Shown piece by piece: positions 5,969-34,021 of a DNA stretch of 38,602 nucleotides. The stretch covers positions 1 through 38,602 of IMG/VR virus record IMGVR_UViG_3300032236_000882; one strand, written 5' to 3'. The stretch comes from a virus. The stretch's first letter is position 1. Each line of letters opens with the position of its first letter. The notes beneath the pieces are model-generated. The model was not told where the DNA came from. It ran no database searches and was given only the letters and a program-made list of their open reading frames with translations. A program made the translations under genes and the position numbers.

Positions 5969-6835
5969 TTAAAAATACGCGGGGGCATTTGCAAATTGGC
6001 TTTGCAATGTTTGCTGACTAACTGGGCTAACAACATTACCCATGTTAGAACCATTAATGCCAGAAAAATAATTTCCTAAACTTGATAAGTTGCCACTACC
6101 ATAAGCCGATCCTAAAGATGATCCAATGTTTCCAATACCTTGACCAATAGCCGCATAAGGAGCGCCAGCGGCTGCTGCATTAGCATTACCAAGATTTTGA
6201 TATGCGTTACTAATAGCAGGGCTTTGACCAATCCCCGCAAGTTGTCCAGCAGCGTTTAATCCAACACCTGCGCCTGTTCCAGTAATATTGGCCTGTTGAC
6301 CTAAAACATTCGCAGTTTGTTGTTGTCCTTGTAAATTTTGATTAAACGCATTACCGTATGCGGTTTGAGCTCTTTGCCAAGCGTTTTGGAAACCTGTAGC
6401 CGCTTGGTTTTGAGCGTAATTGTTAAGGGCCATTTCATTTGCACCCGAAAGTAAGCCACCCTTAGCCGCAGAAGAATTGTTAATAGCTTGCAATCCTTGT
6501 TGTAATTGCATTTGATAGCCTGGAGTAGCTTGTAATTCTGCAAGATTATTGACCATTGGCGTATACAATGGACTTTGCTGATATTGAGACATTCCATAAG
6601 GCGTTGTCATGGATGGAACGGCGCCCATATATTGATTTATAGCTGTTTGATAGTTAGGGACGTTTGTTTGCCCAAAACTAATATAAGGCTGTAAGTTTTG
6701 TTGCGCTTGTTGATAAATCTGTTTTTCAAAGTCAAGTTGAGCTTGCGCTTGCTGTTGGGCTGCGTCCGCAGCACTACTGGCTCCGGCTGCGCTTACGCCA
6801 GCCCCAATTGCGGCTCCTGCTACTGCGAATGGCAT
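5969..6835 (-). CDS. DNA transfer protein p32-like ejection protein, 288 aa
   Basis: The N-terminus is a small apolar Ala/Gly helix (AVAGAAIGAGVSAAGASSAADAA). A Gln/Ala-rich region follows, then the stretch GYQMQLQQGLQAINNSSAA..GGLLSG, with YAQNQAATGFQNAWQRAQTAYG further on. That block is characteristic of phage proteins usually labelled DNA transfer protein p32 or tail injection proteins. They leave the capsid at infection and help the genome cross the periplasm. The C-terminal half is low-complexity Gly/Asn/Ser. An excellent SD (AGGAGG, 7 bases from ATG) lies inside the end of the oxygenase gene, with which it overlaps by 16 bases. Confidence 0.75.
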   Translation of the reverse strand: MPFAVAGAAIGAGVSAAGASSAADAAQQQAQAQLDFEKQIYQQAQQNLQPYISFGQTNVPNYQTAINQYMGAVPSMTTPYGMSQYQQSPLYTPMVNNLAELQATPGYQMQLQQGLQAINNSSAAKGGLLSGANEMALNNYAQNQAATGFQNAWQRAQTAYGNAFNQNLQGQQQTANVLGQQANITGTGAGVGLNAAGQLAGIGQSPAISNAYQNLGNANAAAAGAPYAAIGQGIGNIGSSLGSAYGSGNLSSLGNYFSGINGSNMGNVVSPVSQQTLQSQFANAPAYF

Positions 6836-7392
6836 AAACGCCTCCTATCTGATCGTATGCAAATAATAAGTGTGATTCTGTCTACAGGTGAATCATTCCG
6901 CACCCAATGAGTTACTTGGTTGTTAAACCAATAAACCTCACCAGGTTGAGCAGAATATTCGCCTTCCTCAAAGCAAAACGCTTGATTTGGATGTGCTTCA
7001 AGCTGAATTGCATATTTATCGTAATACGCTGCATGCCAACTAACGTCAACATGAGGAGCCACGAAACCACCTGAAGGTATCCGTGTAATGAGTATGCCGC
7101 CAAGTCTTTCACCTTGAACGCGGCTCATAATTTGAAAAGCTAAATCTTTTACAGCAGGTAATTGTTGTGCTGCTTCATACCATACAGGATCATGTTCTTC
7201 ATTAAAATCAGACCATGAACCATTAAACTCTGCGTAATCCCTATATCGCACCCAAATGTCTGATATTCCCGTATGAGGACTATCATACCGTTCAGTACGG
7301 TTTGTGTACATATTCCACAGTTGTGGATTCTGCTTGATTTGAAGTAATGCCGGAATGTGATCTACTGCACCTATCGACAACACATTGTTCAA
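6820..7392 (-). CDS. 2-oxoglutarate/Fe(II) oxygenase, aspartyl/asparaginyl hydroxylase-like, 190 aa
   Basis: The protein contains the iron-binding triad and co-substrate arginine of 2-oxoglutarate oxygenases: H114 and D116 in APHVDVSWH, H162 in NNQVTHWVRN, and R172 in VDRITLI. The surrounding GEVYWFNN and the beta-rich core match the Asp/Asn beta-hydroxylase (Asp_Arg_Hydrox) branch, which hydroxylates protein side chains. The substrate is unknown. It is coupled by ATGA (7389-7392) to the sulfotransferase-like gene and lies four genes downstream of the collagen-like fibre. Inference: it hydroxylates a virion protein, possibly that fibre. Metabolic or host-protein hydroxylation is the alternative. 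Confidence 0.8.
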   Translation of the reverse strand: MNNVLSIGAVDHIPALLQIKQNPQLWNMYTNRTERYDSPHTGISDIWVRYRDYAEFNGSWSDFNEEHDPVWYEAAQQLPAVKDLAFQIMSRVQGERLGGILITRIPSGGFVAPHVDVSWHAAYYDKYAIQLEAHPNQAFCFEEGEYSAQPGEVYWFNNQVTHWVRNDSPVDRITLIICIRSDRRRLCHSQ

Positions 7393-7865
7393 ACCATTTC
7401 CCTCACAAGTTCAATTGCTGTGTGGTTTTGCACGTTCATATCGCATAACAAATTAAATCTATGGATGTTAAACGGCAAACCAAATACAGTCCTGCACACT
7501 TTAGACATTACAGCAGGGTCAAAAAGATCCTTAAACTGTATCCTGTAACCTTCAATCTGATTTAACATGTCTATTGAGTCATCTGGCATTAAAGGAAACT
7601 CCATTTTCTTTAAAGAATCGTTTATTTCAGTTAATGAACGTTCAATAATTAATTTTGGTGCTGAATGAGCATTAATAGCTTCAATTTGATAAATTGCGCT
7701 TGTTTCAGCTATTCCAAATTTTAAACCAAACCCTTGTTGATCTAATTCATTTAACGTGTGATAAATAAAACTTTCATGCCAACACAAACTAACATCAGTG
7801 GTGAAAAGATTAGCGGCCCAAGCTGTGCCTGAGCGCGGTAATCCAATTACCATAAAATCAATCAT
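7389..7865 (-). CDS. Sulfotransferase-like P-loop protein, 158 aa
   Basis: The N-terminus begins [23 protein letters not shown] (residues 8-14) is the PAPS 5'-phosphate loop of sulfotransferases. [11 protein letters not shown] (about 75-85) is placed where the 3'-phosphate-binding Arg/Ser of the family would fall. CWHE (28-31) offers possible acid/base residues. At 158 residues it is shorter than usual sulfotransferases (about 250 or more), yet it has a normal start and stop, so it is a compact type rather than an obvious fragment. It is coupled by ATGA to both neighbours. It would transfer sulfate from PAPS to a hydroxyl; the acceptor is unknown. A shorter nucleotide kinase-like role cannot be excluded. 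Confidence 0.68.
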
Positions 7866-8008
7866 TTCTTTTTACAACAACCGGCTTTACTTTTACGAGC
7901 TTCAGAGTAAGCAATTGCGGCTGCTTGTTTGACCGGCTTACCGGCTTTAACTTCTGTAGCAATGTTCTTGCTGATTGTCTTTTGTGAAGAACCTTTTTTT
8001 AACGGCAT
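7862..8008 (-). CDS. Small Lys-rich phage protein (MPLKKGSS family), 48 aa
   Basis: The ORF is short, with a very good SD (GGAGG) seven bases before the ATG and an ATGA overlap (7862-7865) with the sulfotransferase gene. It starts [16 protein letters not shown], continues [17 protein letters not shown], and ends in a CC pair and three lysines. The family is widespread as a small phage or bacterial protein of unknown function; the sequence is basic and may bind nucleic acid. Only its position ties it to the neighbouring modification enzymes. Confidence 0.75.
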
Positions 8009-8026
8009 ATTGACCTCCAGAGATAT

Positions 8027-9115
8027 TTATAATATAGCAAAAGTTGGATCTAACGTATACCACCCTTTGTCATTCAAATTGTTGATCTGCTTAAAGATTC
8101 GGTCCATTTGTGCGCCTACATTCTCAAGAGAGTACTTTTCTCTTGTTTTCAGAGCAATTTTTTCTCTATCTAATTGCCATGCAAACTCTACCGCTGTAAC
8201 CCAATCGCCTAATGTCTTGCACCTGAACCCGGTAACCCCATGCTCGATAGTCTCAGAAAAGGCTCCATAATCAGACCCTAGTAATGGAGTACCGCATAAC
8301 ATACCTTCAACACCTGCACCGCCAAAAGGTTCACAGTATTGTGTTGGCATAACCATAGCGTATGCGTTCCTTAGAAGCTCACTACGGGCCAAACCAGTGA
8401 CAGGCTCACGGTACGTCAAGTTAGGTATTTCTGGATCTAGAAATAACTCAGGATAACCAGAACCACACATCACTACCGGCATATCTACATGCCTTGCAAT
8501 CTCTTTTACGGTTTGTAATCCTTTACACTCAATGACTCTTCCAAAATAAAGCAGGTATTTACCTTGCTCATAACTTGGTTTCCAGTCATCTAAGTCATAA
8601 CCCATAGGGCACACCCATTGATATGAGTTGCCTTGCTTTTGTTCCTTGCCTTGATGCCATGACCACCATTGATAAGTCTCATAGATTCTTAAATCTAATC
8701 CGCAATCTGGATAACCTATACCAATTTCCACGTGTTTGGCGAAAGGAAACAAAGTAGCCAAGTCAGCATGAGTAACGCCAAAAGGATGACAAACAATATC
8801 TCCAGGCATAATTCTTTTAGCCAATTCATTTTTTAATCTCGCAGAAAAAGCCCTATAAATATCGGAATCAAGGTTTGCCTCACCGTGAGGTGGTGCTGAA
8901 TTCATTTTAGCTTTTAACTCTTTAAACTCGTCCTTCTTCAATATCACCACATGCTCGGATGCCTGTGATGTTGATCCTTCGTTGCTGTACTCAATGACCT
9001 CATACCCATAGGGGAGCATCATTTTACCAAACCGATATATTCTCCCAGTAAACGCACAGTGACTATATTCTGGAGTTGGAACAGTGTGGAACAGACCTAA
9101 TAAATGCAACTTCAT
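8027..9115 (-). CDS. GT4-type (GT-B) glycosyltransferase, 362 aa
   Basis: The protein has a GT-B layout. The N-terminal half opens [11 protein letters not shown]. The C-terminal nucleotide-sugar domain has [22 protein letters not shown] and the hallmark E-x7-E (E262 and E270 in [11 protein letters not shown]), followed by [15 protein letters not shown]. Retaining glycosyltransferases of family 4 transfer a sugar from an NDP-sugar. I placed the start at 9113-9115 because it overlaps the fibre stop as ATGA; four more codons upstream are open but unnecessary. Direct coupling to the collagen-like fibre suggests the fibre, or host surface sugar, as acceptor. A role in DNA-base modification is less likely because no base hypermodification genes are seen. 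Confidence 0.85.
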
Positions 9116-10959
9116 ACAATTTTCCAAGTGCTGCCAGAACTTACAGTTACAACAATTCCAGAGCTAATCGTAACAGGTCCAGCGGAAATACCATTTTGCC
9201 CTGTAGCTATTGTATAACTTATACCAATAGTTTTGGAGTTTACAGTAATTCCATTGCTTGAAATCATAGCAACAGAGGTTAATTCCCCTGTGCTTGGTTT
9301 GTACAAATATTTAGCGTTACTTGTATAAGAGTTTGTAATAGCTCCAGAAGTTGCGGTTACAAATATTGGATATAATGCGGTTGTGGTTGCGGTATCATTA
9401 GAAACAGTTGAATACGGTCCTGTAGCTCCTGTAACGCCTATTCCGGTAGCGCCTGTTACCCCTGTTGCGCCAGTTGTGCCCACGCCAGCGGGTCCTGTAA
9501 CGCCAGTTGCACCCGTTACGCCTATTCCAGAAGCGCCGGTAGCGCCGGTTATTCCAATACCCGTTGCCCCAGTTGCTCCGGTGGTTCCAATACCCGCAAT
9601 TCCGGTTGCTCCAGTTGGGCCAATTTGCGTATACATCACCTGAGATGCGGTAACAATAGCGCATGGTGAAACAGGGTTAACTGGAGAAGTTCCAGCAGGG
9701 AATGTCTGTAGCTGAAGCATTGTGCTATCGCCTGACCACATCAATTGCAAATAATCGCCTGATGTAATCCTTAAAACATAATTGATTGCAAGAATGGTGT
9801 ATCCATTACTTGAACCATGCGCCGATGTAATAGCGTAATAACTATTAGTATCAGCAACGTCAACACCGTTTTGTCTAAGCCATACACTAATATTGTGGAT
9901 CTGTGAATCTGTGTTTACGGCCTGTAGCGAATATTGGATGTTGTAGACACCACCGGAAGAAAACGTGATTCTATTTCCACTAACAATACTGACGCCGTTG
10001 CTATTGGGGTCTGTGTTACTAAGATTTATAGCATAAGCGGTTGTTGTATTAACAAGCGTTTGTGTGGTTGTATCATAGAACGAACCCCAATAACCTAACG
10101 CACCACCAACCCCCGCTGGGCCTGTAGCACCAGTGGGTCCGGTAAATGAAAGGCCAGTTGCGCCAGTAATTCCTTGCAATCCTGTAGCGCCAGTAATACC
10201 AATTCCTGTTGCGCCCGTAGTTCCAATACCAGTAGCGCCTTGTGGGCCTGTTGCTCCGGTAATTCCAATACCTGTAGCTCCTGTAATCCCAATACCCGTT
10301 GCGCCTTGTGGCCCCGTAGCGCCTGTAATACCGATACCTGTTGGACCAGTTGGACCAGATAATCCTTGTGGGCCAACAATCTGGCCAACATTGTTCCAAA
10401 TAAGCGCAGCAGTCCAGATGTACAAATCACCGTTGGAATCGACAATGTAAGCATCATTTACATTGTTTCCGGTAGTTGGAAGTAAACTTGGATTAGCTAC
10501 AGAACCCTTAATGTTAATTGATGTGCCTTGTGGCCCCGTAGCACCTGTAATACCGATACCTGTTGCGCCAGTAATACCTACGCCAGTTGCCCCAGTACTG
10601 CCGGTTAAGCCAGTCGCACCTGTAATCCCGATGCCTGTGGCGCCAGTGGAACCTGTATTTCCAATTAAACCAGTAGCGCCTGTTGCCCCAGGGATTGTTG
10701 AAGCGGGGCCAGTCGCGCCTGTAACACCAATTGATCCAGTCGGCCCCGTAGAACCTGGTGGACCAGGAACAGTAGAAGTAGGACCAGTAGCGCCAACAGA
10801 GCCAGAAGAATAAGGTAAAAGGTTCCATTTAGTAGAGCCATCACCCACTTTAAATTTATGGGTATCAGTTTCAACACCCATTTCTCCGGATGCAAGCGTT
10901 GGGTTAGCCGTAGACCATTCAGACGCTAGACCTCTTCTCAACTGAATTTGAACCGTCAT
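9112..10959 (-). CDS. Collagen-like tail fibre with Mtd-type N-terminus and C1q-like domain, 615 aa
   Basis: Residues 1-50 ([33 protein letters not shown]) match the small beta domain at the N-terminus of phage receptor-binding proteins such as major tropism determinant. Three collagen-like Gly-X-Y blocks follow at about 56-147, 197-285 and 448-515, with Thr very frequent in the Y position (GITGATG, GPTGPTG). They flank a small domain (148-196, [16 protein letters not shown]) and a jelly-roll C1q/BclA-like domain (about 288-445). Residues 516-615 are homologous to the C-terminus of the 16418-17455 fibre. Collagen triple helices are made by trimers, so this is likely a trimeric receptor-binding fibre. 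Thr-rich triplets are the O-glycosylation sites in bacterial collagen-like proteins. Confidence 0.88.
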
Positions 10960-11168: not shown

Positions 11169-12952
11169 TACTTTTGCGCCTCTGTCGCATAAGCTGCTGC
11201 ACTCATCAGAACCACTTTAACTGGATCTGAAATGCGGAACTTGAACACATAGTTTCTTGATACTCCAAGCCTTCTCCATTCTGCGCGCTTTAAGAACTCA
11301 CCCTGATCACCAAAGTTAGTCCACATTTCCATGCCCCACGTAAAACCACCGTCCCTTGATACTTGTAGCATCACTTGTGGATTTTGCCCCTGACCACCTG
11401 ACGTACCTACACCTTGTTCCATATCAAGACGCAATCTATAGATGTGCAACTTGTTGAAACTGTCACCTTTAAAAAAATGCGGGGTTATTAGCTCCCGCAC
11501 AATGGGAAACCCATTATCCGTGTATTGAGTCGGATCTAATGCGTAGATATTGCCGTTCCGGTAATCCGTGACAATATTTTGATAATTAAACTGAGTACCT
11601 TTGTTGCCGTAGTGCCTTGTATCGTTGTAACTGACCAGTTGGCTCCACATGTTCGATGTAGCATCAAACAACCATGTAATACCGGCGGTTTGGAAGCTGA
11701 TTTGATAAAATTCATGTCCATTTTGACGGTATCCAAAGGCTACAGCGTCACCAGGATCCTCATAACTGCTAAACAGATAATCAAGATCAGGAGGTGAAAC
11801 AACAACAGGCAAGTAGTTTTGAATGGTAACTACTGAGATTCCGCCTCGTCTTGCTCTGGCCAGAAAGTACATGGAGCCATTGACTCTAGCAATTGTCCAA
11901 GGCGACACCACGCCGAAATCATTCGGAGAGCCAGAAATACGCAAATAAGGAAAAGGATAAGCACCAACATCTTGCCAATATTCGTAAGAGATTACACCCA
12001 AAAGCGCTAAGTTACCGTTATCAATGGCAATAGCACTCAAATTATCGGTATAGGCTTCCTTAGAGGCAAAATTTAAAGCGTTCCAAGTGAAAGCGTCATA
12101 TTGGTTAGATATGTAAAATTGTCGCGTATCGGGCTTATTTACAATAAAATAGGAATCGTTGAAGACAACCGTAGTACCACCAGGAAACCCTGCATCTGTA
12201 ATCTGCCTAAAGTTATTAACAACCTTTAGGTTTCCGCTTGTGATTGCGCTTGTTGTTGCTGTGAACTGCCATTGATTAGCATTGCATACTGTGCCGGTTC
12301 CTGGTGTTGGCCCTGTGGCCATAAAGATTGTACCAACGGTATTGGTTGCAGCCCCTACTAGCGTGAAATCTGATGTGCCAATCGTTTCAATTCTGTAAGT
12401 AGAATTAGCAACCATAGCAGTTGCTAAACTAGTGATCATTTGAACAGTATAAGTACCATCAGCTAATGTTCCGCTTTGAACATCAATTTCAACAGAATCA
12501 CCCGTGTGTCTGTTGGTGGTGTTTTCTGTAACCGTTACTGTAGTACCTGATTGCGAATAAACTAAATCAGGTGTTGTTTCTTGATAAACATAACCATATT
12601 CACCATCAACAATCATAATCTGTGAGGCATTGTCAGACATGCTGACGTTGCCGGAATTGGTCAGTAACTCTCCCACCCTTGTTACGGTCCAGTTAGCATC
12701 AATTTCATACACATCAGCGCCTGCAACCGCTAACATAAAGTCAGAAGGTTGATACCACCAGATACCTCTAATAGGGTAAATGCCTACATTAGCTTGAAGA
12801 GTTAGACCAGGAGTTCCATAAGCGACAAGACGAGACTTATCCGCCTCTGCCTTGACCTCCATATAGATATTTTGACGTTTCTGAGCCGTTACAGCACGAG
12901 ATTTGCCTGAAATGCCTGGGCCAAGAATAGGAAGTTGCATAGTTGCTGGCAT
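11168..12952 (-). CDS. P22 gp10-like packaged DNA stabilisation / tail hub protein, 594 aa
   Basis: The start MQLPILGPGISGKSRAVTAQK and the following beta-rich repeats with many aromatic residues (IRGIWWYQPSDFMLAVAGADVYEI; PYLRISGSPNDFGVVSPW) fit the phage stabilisation (gp10) family. In P22, gp10 assembles below gp4 as the tail hub, closes the portal channel after packaging and carries the tailspike and needle. The length is somewhat above P22 gp10 (472 residues). The ATG is preceded by a GGAGG SD that overlaps the divergent HNH promoter. On the late transcript it is separated from the gp4-like gene by the antisense HNH gene. Confidence 0.82.
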   Translation of the reverse strand: MPATMQLPILGPGISGKSRAVTAQKRQNIYMEVKAEADKSRLVAYGTPGLTLQANVGIYPIRGIWWYQPSDFMLAVAGADVYEIDANWTVTRVGELLTNSGNVSMSDNASQIMIVDGEYGYVYQETTPDLVYSQSGTTVTVTENTTNRHTGDSVEIDVQSGTLADGTYTVQMITSLATAMVANSTYRIETIGTSDFTLVGAATNTVGTIFMATGPTPGTGTVCNANQWQFTATTSAITSGNLKVVNNFRQITDAGFPGGTTVVFNDSYFIVNKPDTRQFYISNQYDAFTWNALNFASKEAYTDNLSAIAIDNGNLALLGVISYEYWQDVGAYPFPYLRISGSPNDFGVVSPWTIARVNGSMYFLARARRGGISVVTIQNYLPVVVSPPDLDYLFSSYEDPGDAVAFGYRQNGHEFYQISFQTAGITWLFDATSNMWSQLVSYNDTRHYGNKGTQFNYQNIVTDYRNGNIYALDPTQYTDNGFPIVRELITPHFFKGDSFNKLHIYRLRLDMEQGVGTSGGQGQNPQVMLQVSRDGGFTWGMEMWTNFGDQGEFLKRAEWRRLGVSRNYVFKFRISDPVKVVLMSAAAYATEAQK

Positions 12953-12980
12953 TAGACAAATCCTCCGTTAATGTTATACT
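12952..12980 (+). promoter_or_regulatory. Sigma70-type promoter for the HNH gene
   Basis: TTAGAC (12952-12957), a 17-bp spacer, and TATACT (12975-12980). Transcription would begin near 12987, only 10-22 bases before the possible HNH start codons. The -35 box overlaps the start codon of the gp10-like gene, and the spacer contains its SD on the other strand. Confidence 0.55.
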
Positions 12981-13008
12981 TTACATACAACATTTTATGG
13001 ATCTTGTC

Positions 13009-13512
13009 ATGAAATTGATTCCAAATCTTGATTTTCCTTATTACGCTACAGAGGACGGAAAAATTATTAGCCACAAGTTGAAACGCCCGCTTGCTACAGT
13101 TTTGAATAAAGGCTACGAAGCAATTGAAGTTCGCAAAGATGGAGAACGGTTGTACACAAGAGTTCATAGGCTTGTTTGTCTTGCTTATCATGGAGAGCCA
13201 CCAACTTCCAATCATTGTGTAAACCATAAAGACGGAAATAAACTCAATAATAAACCAGATAATCTTGAATGGGTTACACCATCCGAAAATTCTCAACATT
13301 TTTATGACGAACTTAACGGAAAAGCCTTGCGCCCAAGAGGACACAATAATCATTGGAGAGCTAATTATACTGATGAAGAAGTCAGAACAATTAGAAAATT
13401 TCATAAAGAAGGTATTGGCTACCATAAAATACGAAATTTAATGGGTAACAAAACCTCTTGGGTGGCAATCCAAATGTTAATTAAAGGCAAAACATATACA
13501 CACGTACTATAA
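13009..13512 (+). CDS. HNH homing endonuclease (free-standing), 167 aa
   Basis: The protein begins MKLIPNLDFPYYATEDGKIISH, then RVHRLVCLAYHG, followed by the HNH core NHCVNHKDGNKLNNKPDNLEWVTPSEN, which is the HNH_3 type. A C-terminal helix-turn-helix-like segment (YTDEEVRTIRKFHKEGIGYHKIRNLMG) is the usual DNA-binding part. Such enzymes nick or cut intron-less or homologous sites and copy their own gene. It is the only gene on this strand within the 31-kb late arm. It inserts cleanly between the gp4-like and gp10-like genes, ending four bases before the gp4-like stop. In-frame starts also exist at 12997 and 12943; the last lies upstream of the predicted promoter's TSS. Confidence 0.88.
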   Translation: MKLIPNLDFPYYATEDGKIISHKLKRPLATVLNKGYEAIEVRKDGERLYTRVHRLVCLAYHGEPPTSNHCVNHKDGNKLNNKPDNLEWVTPSENSQHFYDELNGKALRPRGHNNHWRANYTDEEVRTIRKFHKEGIGYHKIRNLMGNKTSWVAIQMLIKGKTYTHVL

Positions 13513-22560: not shown

Positions 22561-22636
22561 TGGAGCCGGTAAAAGGACTTGAACCCTTAACTTCTTCATT
22601 ACAAGTGAAGCGCTCTACCAATTGAGCTATACCGGC
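22561..22636 (-). tRNA. tRNA-Thr (UGU anticodon)
   Basis: On the minus strand the cloverleaf is complete. The acceptor stem is GCCGGTA/TACCGGC. The D arm holds AGCTCAATTGGTAGAGC, and the anticodon arm is CTTCA-CTTGTAA-TGAAG with anticodon TGT. The T arm contains GGTTCAAGTCC, and the 3' CCA is encoded. It lies between the scaffold and coat genes in the late operon and is presumably processed from that transcript. It reads ACA (and ACG by wobble), codons plentiful in the Thr-rich fibres. Confidence 0.93.
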
Positions 22637-29037: not shown

Positions 29038-31098
29038 TCATTTTTCACCTGCTGGACGATAGTATTTTGTTGCGTTTTTATGCTCGCCTTGCACGTTAAT
29101 TTCTACTTTTTGTGCATCAGTCAGTTCTGCAAGCGCCTCTAGTAAATACGTCTTTTTCCCTCCAATATCTTCGTAAATTTTGTTCGTACTGACACCTAAA
29201 AAGCTGTACAGACCTTCATCCATTGCCTGTTTCCATTCCCTTTTAATATAGTCTAATACCCTTATTAAGCGCATTGAATCATCCATGTTCTTATTGCGAA
29301 CAGATACTTCAGCCTTCCTAGCTTCCATCGAATCATCACCGAATAAAGGCTGAGGGACACCGAACCTATATACTATATCTTGAATCTCTCCCCAAGGCGT
29401 TGATACTGTTTCATTACCAGTAATAGTATCCATTTCCATTTCATTAAAAGCCGCTTCAAATCTTTTTTTACCTAATACAAAAAACCTTTTATCGGGAATA
29501 TCTTCGTCTTTAACTAAAAAAGCCACCCCATGCGCGTCACCTACCCAAGCACCGCCACCTCTCGGTGAAAGTTCATCAGGCGCAGAGGTGCGTGTGATTG
29601 CTTTTGCCAGATGCGCTATGAGCCACATAGAACCACCGTTAAGCGTTTTCTTAATCGAACCTATGGCTTTACCGATCTCCGCGTTATCGTTCTCATTGTC
29701 TAGGTCAATCGTTGCGTTACTGGTATCAAAAATAATCAAAGGATCAATCATGTAATGGTTCTGGTTGGCTTCCGCTTCGTATGAATAGCGCTCACGCCAG
29801 AACTCTATAGACTTAGCCAATTGTTCCGGTTTCCGTCTGTTCGCAGGGATCACATGAAACCACTCATCAAACTCTGATGCAGGAGCCACGTTCTCCGCGC
29901 TCATCATCATACCTTTTACGATACGCCTTAACTGACCAGGATCTTCTGTGACGTAGATAACTTTCCTGCGTAACACAATGTTGATGTTAGGGACATTCCA
30001 TAAACCAGCAACAATAGCAGCGATAGGAACCACAGCACTGGTCTTACCAACACCGGCTGCACCTGCTATGACGGTCACGCCTGTACCGATAAATCCGTCC
30101 ACTGTATATTCAATATAATCAAAGTTCCCGCTGAAAAAACGATTCCCTATAGGCTCATCATAGATAGGATCATGAACGATGGGTTGATTAATGTTTGACT
30201 TAGGATTGACCCAGCCCAAGCTCTGAGCCTCTTTAAGAATGTGCCTGTAGTCTATTTCGTTCTTCGTATCTATGGGAAAAGTTTCCCATTTGTTACGAGC
30301 TTCAGCCGGATCATAAACATCACTCGATTGTGACCACTCCAACCAAAGAGAGCGCCCGTCATCACCGTGTTTTTTAAGCGCTAGGCCAAACTGCACCCAA
30401 GTATCGTAATCATCGGATCTGATTCGTGTAAGCGCTGAACGAATATCAGCCACCTGAGCGGGTGATAAGTTATGCTCACCATGATTAATGGTCTGATTAA
30501 CGTTCTTCGCTCTACGCGCCTCATACGGCCTTAGAACCTGTTCTACGAAGTCAGTTAGATCAGTAAATGATTCGCACCTGTGAGCTGCACCTGTAACCGT
30601 AAAAAATCGCCCTGTAGAATAAGCCTCTATACCGTCTTCCTTGCTTGATCCTATAGACTTAAATTCTTTACCGTAACTAATGGCATGTACACCATCACCG
30701 TTTGGTGAGGATTCAACATAGCCCGGTAGGTCGTTCCAAAGCACTTGGAGGTGTGCGTGTTTAGAGATTTCGTCAAAGTCGATACCTTGCCAATAGTTGC
30801 CTGTTCCATCAGGTCCTAGTGCAAAACCTAAACCCGCGTAAGGTTCTGGGCTATTGATAATAGCATCTGATGCTTGTTCGAAGGTAGCTAGTTCAAACAA
30901 GTCCTCATCGGTATCGGTTGATTTGCGCGTGAAACCAGAGATATAGAAAGGAACCTTTCTGGGCTTCTTACCAACTACAGGATGTGGGACTTCCTTCCAT
31001 AAGAGCCACCGCTTTGCGTGTAACATAGCATCGGGTATTTCTTCCGAGATACCGTCAAGGCTTTCTAAGAGTTCTCCTGTATCTTTATCAATAATCAT
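29038..31098 (-). CDS. Primase-polymerase / helicase fusion, about 686 aa
   Basis: I start at the ATG at 31096-31098 (MIIDKDTG), which lies inside the preceding HTH gene. The N-terminal prim-pol half has YAGLGFALG, GIDFDEI (catalytic D-x-D), GVHAISYG and GIEAYSTGRFFTVTG. A linker of PriCT-2 type follows (IRSALTRIRSDDYDTWVQFGLALKKHG). The C-terminal RecA-like helicase has a Walker A, GAAGVGKTS (about residue 346), and YMIDPLIIFDTSN as Walker B, the AAA_25/RepA type. This combination starts replication by making primers and unwinding. Its stop abuts the iteron cluster. Confidence 0.86.
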   Translation of the reverse strand: MIIDKDTGELLESLDGISEEIPDAMLHAKRWLLWKEVPHPVVGKKPRKVPFYISGFTRKSTDTDEDLFELATFEQASDAIINSPEPYAGLGFALGPDGTGNYWQGIDFDEISKHAHLQVLWNDLPGYVESSPNGDGVHAISYGKEFKSIGSSKEDGIEAYSTGRFFTVTGAAHRCESFTDLTDFVEQVLRPYEARRAKNVNQTINHGEHNLSPAQVADIRSALTRIRSDDYDTWVQFGLALKKHGDDGRSLWLEWSQSSDVYDPAEARNKWETFPIDTKNEIDYRHILKEAQSLGWVNPKSNINQPIVHDPIYDEPIGNRFFSGNFDYIEYTVDGFIGTGVTVIAGAAGVGKTSAVVPIAAIVAGLWNVPNINIVLRRKVIYVTEDPGQLRRIVKGMMMSAENVAPASEFDEWFHVIPANRRKPEQLAKSIEFWRERYSYEAEANQNHYMIDPLIIFDTSNATIDLDNENDNAEIGKAIGSIKKTLNGGSMWLIAHLAKAITRTSAPDELSPRGGGAWVGDAHGVAFLVKDEDIPDKRFFVLGKKRFEAAFNEMEMDTITGNETVSTPWGEIQDIVYRFGVPQPLFGDDSMEARKAEVSVRNKNMDDSMRLIRVLDYIKREWKQAMDEGLYSFLGVSTNKIYEDIGGKKTYLLEALAELTDAQKVEINVQGEHKNATKYYRPAGEK

Positions 31099-31270
31099 TC
31101 TTGCGTCCTTCCAAATAATCACTGATTGCTTTCACAGCCGCATAAGAAGGATTAAGAGTGCGCCGTTTCGCAATGTCTTTTACCGTGTTGTAGTGAAGCC
31201 CTGTAGCCTCTGCAACTAACAATAAGCGCCGATCTGATAAAGCGTATCTAATTTGCTCAAGCGTCATCAT
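31088..31270 (-). CDS. Small helix-turn-helix regulator, 60 aa
   Basis: The protein has a single HTH: LLLVAEATGLHYNTVKDIAKRRTLNPSYAAVKAISDYLEG, the short Cro/XRE-like type abundant in phages. A GAGG SD stands eight bases before the first of two consecutive ATGs. It is the first leftward gene and overlaps the primase-helicase gene by 11 bases. Its position next to the divergent promoters suggests that it represses one or both, but this is inference. Confidence 0.75.
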   Translation of the reverse strand: MMTLEQIRYALSDRRLLLVAEATGLHYNTVKDIAKRRTLNPSYAAVKAISDYLEGRKNDY

Positions 31271-31305
31271 ATATAATTCCTCTGTTAAAAAATGTTAATG
31301 AACTG

Positions 31306-31334
31306 TTGACATCATAGACGAATACCACTAGAAT
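31306..31334 (+). promoter_or_regulatory. Early rightward promoter
   Basis: TTGACA (31306-31311), a 17-bp spacer, and TAGAAT (31329-31334): a near-consensus sigma70 promoter reading into the recombination genes. The predicted start near 31341 puts the dyad at 31345-31373 within the first 35 transcribed bases. Confidence 0.72.
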
Positions 31335-31339
31335 AGCAA
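31311..31339 (-). promoter_or_regulatory. Leftward promoter, antiparallel to the rightward one
   Basis: On the minus strand: TTGCTA (31334-31339), a 17-bp spacer, and TATGAT (31311-31316). Its -35 box touches the rightward -10 and its -10 touches the rightward -35, so the two cannot be occupied together. The -35 is only 4 of 6 to consensus. Confidence 0.5.
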
Positions 31340-31344
31340 CTGTC

Positions 31345-31373
31345 GTCACAACTTGCATCGTGCAAACCGTGAC
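31345..31373. promoter_or_regulatory. Long dyad at the start of the rightward transcript (operator or RNA hairpin)
   Basis: Arms GTCAC (31345-31349) and TTGCA (31353-31357) mirror TGCAA (31361-31365) and GTGAC (31369-31373), separated by three-base spacers, with a centre of TCG. The symmetric spacing is that of an operator for a dimer. As RNA it would fold into a hairpin with an internal loop. Confidence 0.65.
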
Positions 31374-31392
31374 ATAAATGGAGACAAGCCTG

Positions 31393-32067
31393 ATGGCTAT
31401 TAATCTAAAGACAACCGCTGGTTTACACGCCAACGGGGTTAAATTGCTCGTGTACGGACAAGCAGGGGGCGGAAAAACTTCGCTTATACCTACCTTACCT
31501 CAACCAATTGTTCTAAGCGCTGAGGGTGGTCTATTATCTATTGCGGATGCTGACATACCATTTATAGAGATTAGTTCGATGACGGACCTTACAGAAGCTT
31601 ATGGGTGGTTGACTGAATCTAAGGAAGCAGAAGGTTATCAATCTGTAGCACTCGATTCAATCAGTGAGATTGCAGAGGTGGTTCTTAACACGGAGAAAAA
31701 GCAAACGAAAGATCCTAGACAAGCGTATGGGGCTATGCAGGAAGCTATGACGGACATTATCCGCTCGTTCCGTGATCTTCCGAATCGCCATGTATACATG
31801 TCCGCCAAGCTTGATAAGTCCCAAGATGAAATGGGACGTATTCTGTATGCGCCTTCTATGCCTGGTAACAAGACTGGACAATTGCTTCCGTACTTTTTTG
31901 ATGAAGTGCTTGCGCTTAGAGTTGAAAAAAACGCGGACGGTGAGTCAACTCGTGCGTTGATGTGTGACTCTGACGGGCTTTGGTTAGCTAAGGACCGCTC
32001 AGGAAAGCTAGACGCATGGGAAGCACCTGACTTGGGAACAATCATACAAAAGATTGGAGGTAAATAA
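31393..32067 (+). CDS. Sak4-like RecA-type recombination ATPase, 224 aa
   Basis: The start chosen is ATG at 31393-31395 (MAINLKTTAG), with SD GGAGAC 11 bases away. An ATG 15 bases upstream overlaps that SD and is unlikely. Walker A is GQAGGGKTS (residues 22-30), followed by PIVLSAEGGLLSI, and the Walker B-like strand is GYQSVALDSI. This is the small AAA_24/Sak4 type that anneals or pairs single strands together with a phage SSB. Its TAATG junction with the next gene shows translational coupling. It is the first gene of the recombination module. Confidence 0.83.
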   Translation: MAINLKTTAGLHANGVKLLVYGQAGGGKTSLIPTLPQPIVLSAEGGLLSIADADIPFIEISSMTDLTEAYGWLTESKEAEGYQSVALDSISEIAEVVLNTEKKQTKDPRQAYGAMQEAMTDIIRSFRDLPNRHVYMSAKLDKSQDEMGRILYAPSMPGNKTGQLLPYFFDEVLALRVEKNADGESTRALMCDSDGLWLAKDRSGKLDAWEAPDLGTIIQKIGGK

Positions 32068-32450
32068 TGATAAATAGATTAGCCACTGAATGGATCACGG
32101 CAAAGGAAGCCGAGCGGGTGGCGGTAGAAAAGCGCAGAGCTATCGAGGATCAGCTAAAGCTACATCTGAAAATACAGGAGCAAGATGAAGGGACGATCTC
32201 ACACAAAGATAATGTATACACCATTAAAGCTGTGTGCAGGATGAACCGCAAAATTGACTCTGAAAAGCTTTTAGCAATTGCAGGTCAAAACGGCTATGCT
32301 GATCAGTTGGCTAATCTTTTTAGGTGGAAACCTGAAGTGATCCAATCAGCATGGAAATCCGCTGATCCTAAGATGATACATACACTCAGCGCCGCCATCA
32401 CAATGGAACCAGGACGTCCTTCTTTTTCAATTACAACAACAGGTGAATAA
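32067..32450 (+). CDS. Small protein between Sak4- and DUF669-like genes, 127 aa
   Basis: The N-terminal half is a charged helix (AKEAERVAVEKRRAIEDQLKLHLKI). The rest is a mixed domain with GTISHKDNVYTIKAVCRMNRKIDSEKLL and a Trp (FRWKPEVIQSAW). This small family recurs in phage recombination modules of this kind without an established function. It starts at the TAATG overlap and ends two bases before the next ATG, so all three proteins are made together. Confidence 0.68.
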   Translation: MINRLATEWITAKEAERVAVEKRRAIEDQLKLHLKIQEQDEGTISHKDNVYTIKAVCRMNRKIDSEKLLAIAGQNGYADQLANLFRWKPEVIQSAWKSADPKMIHTLSAAITMEPGRPSFSITTTGE

Positions 32451-32452
32451 CA

Positions 32453-32965
32453 ATGGCATTATTAAACAACGTATTTGAACTCTCATCAGTACCTGAGCGC
32501 GAAGAGCGCAATAACGACTTTACTCCGATCCCTGCCGGTTGGTACACGGCCATGATGATGCGCACTGAGATCAGACCCACTAAGAAAGGTGGTGAAATGA
32601 TCAACATTAGGTATGACATCACAGGTCCGGAACATGTAGGCCGTGTTGTGTTTGGAAACATCAACATCGCTAATGACAACCCAGTCGCGGTACAAATTGG
32701 TCATGAGCAATTAGGCCAAATTCTTAGGGCTATTGGCTTGGACCGCTTGCGTGATACTGATGAATTGTCGGGTCATACATTGCAAATTAAGGTTGAGGTG
32801 CGTAAGTCTGAGGGTTATCCTGATGCTAATGAGGTGCGAGGCTGGAGAGCAGTTCCATCAAGCGTACCTAAATCACCCTTTTCGGATCTCAAAAGCGATC
32901 TAGGAGCAGAACCTGCACCTAAGAAAGCGTCTACGGCTAAAGCTAACCCACCCTGGGTAAAATAA
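32453..32965 (+). CDS. DUF669-type, ssDNA-binding-like protein, 170 aa
   Basis: FTPIPAGWYTAMMMRTEIRPTKKGGEMINIRYDI, later GRVVFGNINIAND and IGHEQLGQILRAIGL, fit DUF669. This beta-barrel protein occurs next to Sak4-type recombinases and is considered a phage ssDNA-binding partner. The flexible tail ends PPWVK, an SSB-tip-like peptide. A strong terminator follows the stop codon. Confidence 0.78.
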   Translation: MALLNNVFELSSVPEREERNNDFTPIPAGWYTAMMMRTEIRPTKKGGEMINIRYDITGPEHVGRVVFGNINIANDNPVAVQIGHEQLGQILRAIGLDRLRDTDELSGHTLQIKVEVRKSEGYPDANEVRGWRAVPSSVPKSPFSDLKSDLGAEPAPKKASTAKANPPWVK

Positions 32966-32981: not shown

Positions 32982-33009
32982 GGCGGTCTTAATGGCCGCC
33001 TCTTTTTTT
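32982..33009 (+). terminator. Intrinsic terminator inside the early arm
   Basis: GGCGGTC (32982-32988), loop TTAAT, GGCCGCC (32994-33000), then TCTTTTTTT. Seven pairs including one G-U, followed by a strong U-tract. It follows the DUF669-type gene and precedes the Cas4-like gene, which needs readthrough or antitermination, or a promoter not found here. Confidence 0.85.
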
Positions 33010-33022
33010 GAGCTAAAAAAAC

Positions 33023-34021
33023 ATGAACACTCAAACCTTAATAGATGCTCACCATGAATCTTTACGAGAACCACCGCGTAGTCACCTGGGATGCTCCACG
33101 CTCGGACATCCATGTGATAGATGGCTGTGGTTATCCTTTAGGTGGGCTGTGGTGGACAAACTTAGTGGACGAATACTGCGTCTTTTCAGAAGAGGCCAGC
33201 TGGAGGAGCTACAAGCTATCAAAGACTTACAGGCCATTGGTTGTAAATTCAGCCATGCCCAGAAGCGGGTGGAGTTCGGTTCTAACGTATCCGGTTCCCT
33301 GGATGGAATATTAGAAGGTGGTTTACCGGATCATGAGTTAAAGCGCTTTGTGGTTGAGTTTAAGACGCACAATAAGAAGTCATTTGATGAACTAGAGAAA
33401 AAAGGAGTTGAGCTTTCAAAGCTAACGCACTGGGTCCAGATGCAAGTGTATATGTTGGGCACTGAAATTACCCAAGCGCTGTATTACGCCACCTGCAAAG
33501 ATGACGACCGTATCTATACCGAGATTGTCGAATTAGACGCTGATAGGGCTACGTATTACGTCAACAGAGGTAAACGCATTGCCTTGTCTGATTCAATGCC
33601 TGAACCAATCTCAAGCAACCCTAGTTGGTACGAGTGCAAGTTTTGCCCTGCATGGGAGTTTTGCCATCAAAGTAAGTTAACTAAAGAGGTTAATTGTCGT
33701 ACCTGCGCTCATTCAACAGCTACAAAAGATGACCAGTTTACGTGCGCTCAGTTTGATAATGAACCGATGCCGGTTGAATGGCAGAGACAGGGATGCACTC
33801 AGCATGTGCTACACCCCGATCTAGTTCCCTGGCCCAGGACGGTCAGTAAGGTTCAAGGTGAAGCGGTTTATATCATTGACAATAAAGAAGTACGCAACGG
33901 GGAACCTGATGCTTATGTGTTTAGTAGTAAGGAGCTGATCGCTAACCCGATTGCTTGCGCTCATTCTGATAATACCGTTGAAGCAATCAGAGATGTTTTG
34001 GATGGTGAGGTGGTTGGATGA
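33023..34021 (+). CDS. Cas4/RecB-like PD-(D/E)XK nuclease with Fe-S and zinc cysteines, 332 aa
   Basis: Nuclease residues are D94 (GSLDGI), E112-x-K114 (VVEFKTH) and Q139-x3-Y143 (QMQVYML). Cysteines at C24, C31 and C205, C208, C214 surround the core, as in Cas4-type nucleases that carry a 4Fe-4S cluster. A further CX2C...C...C group (C225, C228, C241, C258) looks like a zinc ribbon similar to that in the 55-aa protein near 27.3 kb. The 5'-to-3' exonuclease role makes single strands for the Sak4-like ATPase. The start codon has no strong SD. Confidence 0.83.
   Translation: MNTQTLIDAHHESLREPPRSHLGCSTLGHPCDRWLWLSFRWAVVDKLSGRILRLFRRGQLEELQAIKDLQAIGCKFSHAQKRVEFGSNVSGSLDGILEGGLPDHELKRFVVEFKTHNKKSFDELEKKGVELSKLTHWVQMQVYMLGTEITQALYYATCKDDDRIYTEIVELDADRATYYVNRGKRIALSDSMPEPISSNPSWYECKFCPAWEFCHQSKLTKEVNCRTCAHSTATKDDQFTCAQFDNEPMPVEWQRQGCTQHVLHPDLVPWPRTVSKVQGEAVYIIDNKEVRNGEPDAYVFSSKELIANPIACAHSDNTVEAIRDVLDGEVVG

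Follow-up and report, generated by a model that had tools for sequence, protein, structure and literature searches.

We found that the short gap from which the two gene arms of this phage diverge holds two elements that are conserved in dozens of relatives: a pair of superposed, oppositely directed predicted promoters (31306 to 31339) and, at the 5′ end of the predicted rightward transcript, a hairpin (31345 to 31373, plus strand) that is very probably a structured RNA and not a DNA operator. Positions 31306 to 31339 are best read as an early promoter/operator whose two directions exclude each other and which is autoregulated in the manner of Cro. The leader RNA structure is well supported, and the conservation of its shape suggests a regulatory role. 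For both elements, conservation among the relatives is stronger evidence than the shuffle or fold statistics reported below.

The window, by which we mean the whole stretch of DNA that was analysed, is a 38.6-kb virus record (38,602 nt; IMGVR_UViG_3300032236_000882) that is possibly incomplete. Pfam and PHROGs matches identify genes for a phage portal, major head protein, terminase, primase, Sak4, an SSB-like protein and an exonuclease. Coding is leftward nearly throughout the region left of 31270 and rightward throughout the region right of 31393; because coding flips direction around it, the 122-bp gap (31271 to 31392) is where the two arms diverge. The leftward arm begins with a 60-aa helix-turn-helix (HTH) protein (31088 to 31270, minus strand), followed by a primase/helicase (PriCT-2 and AAA_25; 29038 to 31122, minus strand; Pfam and PHROGs). 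The rightward arm (plus strand) encodes a Sak4-like recombinase (31393 to 32067; phrog_124, E = 6e-54), a DUF7173 protein (32067 to 32450; Pfam E = 7e-19), a DUF669, ssDNA-binding-like protein (32453 to 32965; Pfam E = 5e-9, with matches to PHROG ssDNA-binding families) and a Cas4-type exonuclease, in that order. The Sak4 start codon is more likely at 31393 than at 31378, because the relatives align from MAIN- (ATG at 31393).

Several other features of the window were recorded. A tRNA-Thr gene (anticodon TGT; 22561 to 22636, minus strand) sits within the run of structural genes, between the major head gene and an upstream 281-aa ORF. An HNH endonuclease gene (12943 to 13512, plus strand) opposes the minus-strand structural genes around it and looks like a homing-type insertion. 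The tail-fibre-like protein at 9112 to 10959 combines an Mtd N-terminal domain with collagen repeats, and its neighbours are a glycosyltransferase (8027 to 9127) and an Asp/Asn hydroxylase-like protein (6820 to 7392), so that the region from 6820 to 10959 possibly specifies a modified collagen-like fibre. The DNA methyltransferase ORF at 34018 to 34587 matches N6_N4_Mtase to its last residue and stops at FIGI; the homologue in locus L066 runs on, and the ORF is possibly truncated or frameshifted.

We compared the gap with its counterparts in 80 relatives chosen by Sak4, 80 chosen by the HTH protein, 12 genome-bin contigs and several cultured phages; the more distant Sak4 phages VPv64, PSASB_03, Seurat and Mcat23 were also retrieved. 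A nucleotide search of phage records gave no match, and the titles and abstracts of the literature naming the isolates are silent on this gap.

The window hairpin reads GTCAC-AAC-TTGCA-TCG-TGCAA-ACC-GTGAC. As a fold it is only moderately unusual (z = −2.6). Its relatives share an architecture of an outer stem, a 3×3 A-rich internal loop and a short inner stem, built from very different sequences, for example CTGCGC-GAA-CGG-AATTGG-CCG-AAG-GCGCAG, CACCAC-AAA-CAG-ATTCC-CTG-ACA-GTGGTG and, at the equivalent place in another relative, CGTTAC-GAA-CTG-AGTC-CAG-ACG-GTAACG. Among 21 distinct copies, from a hairpin set of which part was first picked by a pairing-based finder, 97.4% of cells are paired, compared to 26 to 39% in slid controls, and both partners vary in all six pairs of the outer stem and in one pair of the inner stem. 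When the search was anchored on promoters, 21 of 38 hairpins were recovered, compared to 1.8% in shuffles, with miscalled promoters and mismatched stems partly to blame for the remainder. A covariance search extended the set to 47 distinct copies, where 96.0% of cells are paired and compensatory changes occur in all six outer pairs. The helices thus covary beyond both slid and shuffled controls, as those of a structured cis-regulatory RNA would. In the same 47 copies, positions R7, A8, A14, A24 and M25 and the G12-C21 pair are always identical or of one class. The combination of free stems and fixed loops argues for a recognised RNA structure rather than a DNA operator.

The window's own hairpin is a divergent copy. 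The covariance model (R1) gives no match to it, nor to the copies in PB15, 1N2-2 and CGphi29, and all four were therefore placed by position and shape. The window copy keeps the 3×3 internal loop and most of the invariant bases, which together with position and shape carry its membership of the family; A14 is not kept, and the first loop base is C and not A. By eye, it falls into an AAC/ACC subtype common to loci L083, L084 and L171. No Rfam 15 family was found at the leader of the window or of six relatives, either at the gathering threshold or at E values up to 1, and the scan of the window returned a tRNA only. An intrinsic terminator or attenuator at the dyad was considered and rejected, as the U-tract is absent (the sequence from 31374 onward is ATAAATGGAG).

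The hairpin keeps company with the promoter. Its stem mostly starts 7 to 10 nt past the rightward −10 box, and where genes have been inserted ahead of Sak4 it remains with the promoter, indicating that it marks a transcript start and not one gene. It is usually present in a single copy per genome. Four records (L058, L066, L072 and L081) have three promoter-plus-hairpin copies each and, on inspection, every copy lies shortly 3′ of a promoter-like sequence and ahead of a different gene; one of those in L066 diverges from a methyltransferase gene. Copies also occur in cultured Idiomarina, Salicola and Alteromonas phages, and by eye the PSASB_03 gap has no such hairpin.

A second hairpin lies at the other end of the first rightward genes. 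In the window it is an intrinsic terminator, GGCGGTCTTAATGGCCGCC-TCTTTTTTT (32982 to 33000, plus strand), 3′ of the SSB-like gene and within the operon about 1.6 kb downstream of the leader. A strong hairpin is found at this place in all 26 sampled loci (mean folding energy −21.5 kcal/mol, compared to −11.2 kcal/mol when shuffled), and the excess stability is much weaker after Sak4 and the other genes. A terminator with a U-tract is present in the window, L002, L019 and L083, and is unclear in most other loci. The bracketing of Sak4, DUF7173 and SSB by hairpins suggests that these three genes could be carried on a discrete, abundant, end-protected messenger.

The chief rival to messenger protection is antitermination at the post-SSB terminator, in which the leader hairpin would be a processive antitermination or anti-pausing element of the HK022 put or lambda nut type, loaded while polymerase is departing from the early promoter and enabling read-through of the SSB terminator and beyond. 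The hairpin's place right at the head of early transcripts, whatever gene is downstream, is in keeping with such an element, as are the invariant loop bases, which suggest specific recognition, and the true intrinsic terminator in the window's operon. However, putRNA is about 70 nt long with two stem-loops (PMC9378689), compared to one 29-nt hairpin here; the window's long leftward arm is led by no hairpin copy; and the post-SSB hairpins of most relatives lack a clear U-tract. On this evidence we consider antitermination unlikely. A broader proposal, which we put forward tentatively and with less than even confidence, is that the leader hairpin represents a new early-transcript RNA family, with RNA polymerase or a protein of phage or host origin as its recognition partner. 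Such an RNA would single out early phage messengers to be protected or processively transcribed, and would travel with the Cro-controlled mirror promoter among phages of very different hosts.

The first-pass annotation had described the promoters, the repeats and the dyad of this gap, and all of them are present in the sequence. The rightward promoter, TTGACA-17-TAGAAT (31306 to 31334, plus strand), matches the sigma-70 consensus at 11 of 12 positions and has a counterpart in about 40 related loci, and the leftward promoter, TTGCTA-17-TATGAT (31311 to 31339, minus strand), matches at 9 of 12; these predictions presume a sigma-70-like host. Their boxes interdigitate, each −35 abutting the opposite −10 around a mirror axis at about 31322.5, and the predicted starts (about 31341 to 31342 rightward and about 31304 leftward) are some 37 bp apart. 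The promoters had been called face-to-face; they point apart, and the pair is divergent, or back-to-back. The further claim that only one of them can be used at a time agrees with the geometry, in that two superposed, predicted promoters would exclude each other, and the pair is kept across the relatives.

By itself a 9-of-12 promoter match is not significant (14 sites compared to 18.5 in shuffles in an 8-kb scan). Superposed opposed promoters with at least 9 of 12 matches each arose in 0.4% of 3000 dinucleotide shuffles of the 122-bp gap, and such a pair with one member at 11 of 12 or better arose in 0 of 3000. The same opposed and interdigitated pair, with a 4- to 5-bp offset, recurs in about 40 distinct related loci and in the phage isolates 1N2-2, PB15 and CASP1, the last without the hairpin. 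It also persists where other HTH families, including P22_Cro, replace the PHROG 18104 protein of the window.

The 34-bp core shared by the two promoters (31306 to 31339) has two-fold symmetry, with arms at 31306 to 31317 and 31328 to 31339. An automatic test of arm symmetry took in miscalled sites, and a curated test was used in its place. Across 30 hand-picked representatives, with kinship ignored and with some symmetry expected from the −35 consensus by itself, the arms gave 227 matches within sites, compared to 186 ± 8 when permuted. Examples of arm pairs within a site are TTGCAT/TTGCAT, TTTACA/TTTACA and TTGACTA/TTGACTA. In the L044 clade, both arms shift together to a GAATC-type sequence and the −35 consensus is lost. 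From this covariation and the position of the regulator gene, we infer that the core doubles as an operator for the HTH protein encoded next to it.

A rival reading places a palindromic repressor site in the rightward promoter. If the rightward promoter alone were real, the leftward match would be a by-product of that palindrome and the leftward operon would be transcribed from elsewhere. The leftward −35 is indeed usually the weaker (TTGCAn), and the co-shift of the L044 arms away from the −35 consensus points the same way. Nevertheless, the leftward TAnnAT −10 and the 17-bp spacing are kept in most loci, and plasmid pLS20 offers a natural instance of coincident divergent promoters in use (PMC4207663). 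We therefore judge a solitary rightward promoter to be unlikely.

The first leftward gene had been annotated as a small HTH protein, an assignment borne out by its match to PHROG 18104 ('transcriptional regulator', E = 1e-13). Its predicted model has four helices (mean pLDDT 87), and the best matches among solved structures are XRE/Cro-like (SinR, with 434 Cro lower down). Because these structural matches are weak (best E = 0.09), the protein is assigned mainly through PHROG 18104 and through syntenic exchange: the window protein is itself not a member of PF14549, and P22_Cro (PF14549) proteins hold its position in several relatives.

Two further proposals of the first-pass annotation fared less well. 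The three TGTTRA repeats (31283 to 31309, plus strand; TGTTAA at 31283 and 31293, TGTTGA at 31304) are present, the triplet occurs once in the window, and three hexamer repeats in phase, whatever their sequence, appeared in 0.3% of 3000 gap shuffles. As operators, however, they are not supported, and we assign them no function: they are not conserved past the nearest clade, L002 has changes in two of the three copies, and the more distant loci lack them. The gap had also been read as a decision or timing switch. A lysis/lysogeny decision is unsupported, as phage integrase PF00589 was not found in the record by a search that was positive on control genomes, and none of the proteins searched was recognisable as a CI-like repressor. 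Because both are missing from these searches, a role in timing or dosage fits better.

The hairpin's place near the Sak4 ribosome-binding site raises the possibility of a translational operator, to which Sak4 or SSB would bind and control its own synthesis. Autoregulation of the SSB type is known in T4. This proposal is quite unlikely here, since the hairpin keeps to the promoter when the first gene is unrelated, its extra copies precede other genes, and the Shine-Dalgarno region lies outside the stem. Least probable by far is the original interpretation of the dyad as a DNA operator for the 60-aa HTH protein or the 93-aa XRE protein, which its symmetry near the rightward start and the adjoining divergent HTH gene favour: the stems change completely with pairing kept while loop bases stay invariant, the hairpin sequence is identical beside the unrelated P22_Cro and PHROG 18104 types, and G-U exceeds A-C on the transcript strand (8 compared to 3, a small number).

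Taken together, we think it rather probable that the gap stacks two devices, a mirrored promoter under Cro-like control and a leader RNA hairpin that heads a Sak4-DUF7173-SSB messenger. The 34-bp core would act as a promoter both ways and, because one mirror-symmetric core serves both directions, polymerase would be seated in a single orientation at a time. Leftward transcription would yield the Cro-like HTH protein first and the primase next. The most likely target of the HTH protein is the symmetric core, where its binding would lower transcription in both directions, and this repression could limit and time early transcription in a phage without visible lysogeny genes. The rightward transcript is predicted to start within a few bases of the conserved hairpin, which may shield the 5′ end, bind a protein, or both. 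Together with the post-SSB hairpin or terminator, it would delimit a discrete messenger for Sak4, DUF7173 and SSB that outnumbers the message for the exonuclease further downstream.

Because the hairpin covaries across dozens of environmental phages and also occurs in cultured ones, it is a concrete, testable RNA element that Rfam does not list. Binding to a protein or to polymerase would make it a new device for controlling early transcripts; if it protects mRNA, it would explain overproduction of recombinase and SSB by these phages. The mirrored promoter would provide a natural minimal case of competition between RNA polymerase orientations, with a single Cro-like protein in control.

The closest known arrangement is the Pc/Pr pair of pLS20, coincident divergent promoters whose geometry was established by experiment (PMC4207663). 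There, as here, each −35 is superposed on the −10 of the opposing promoter, and a regulator gene comes first in one operon. Unlike the phage gap, with its one palindromic core and leader hairpin, pLS20 combines several RcoLS20 motifs with DNA looping. In the bidirectional promoters described by Warman, Grainger and colleagues, pseudo-symmetric DNA also drives divergent transcription and the orientations compete; however, these share a −10 and have starts 7 to 25 bp apart (PMC12825309, PMC10268837), whereas the −10 boxes here are separate and the predicted starts are more widely spaced.

A small HTH gene beside divergent early promoters is likewise found in lambdoid phages with Cro or P22_Cro (PF14549). 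Unlike a Cro/CI immunity switch, the divergent partner here is Sak4, with neither the CI partner nor an integrase found. The leader resembles HK022 putRNA in being a structured cis RNA just past an early phage promoter, and differs from its two stem-loops in being a single hairpin, mostly one per genome (PMC9378689). Compared to 5′-terminal stabilising stem-loops such as those of ompA and papA (cited in PMC3997798), the hairpin similarly lies within a few bases of a predicted 5′ end, but its invariant internal-loop and loop bases suggest recognition beyond 5′-end protection. The new part is the leader RNA family; the promoter geometry was already known from pLS20.
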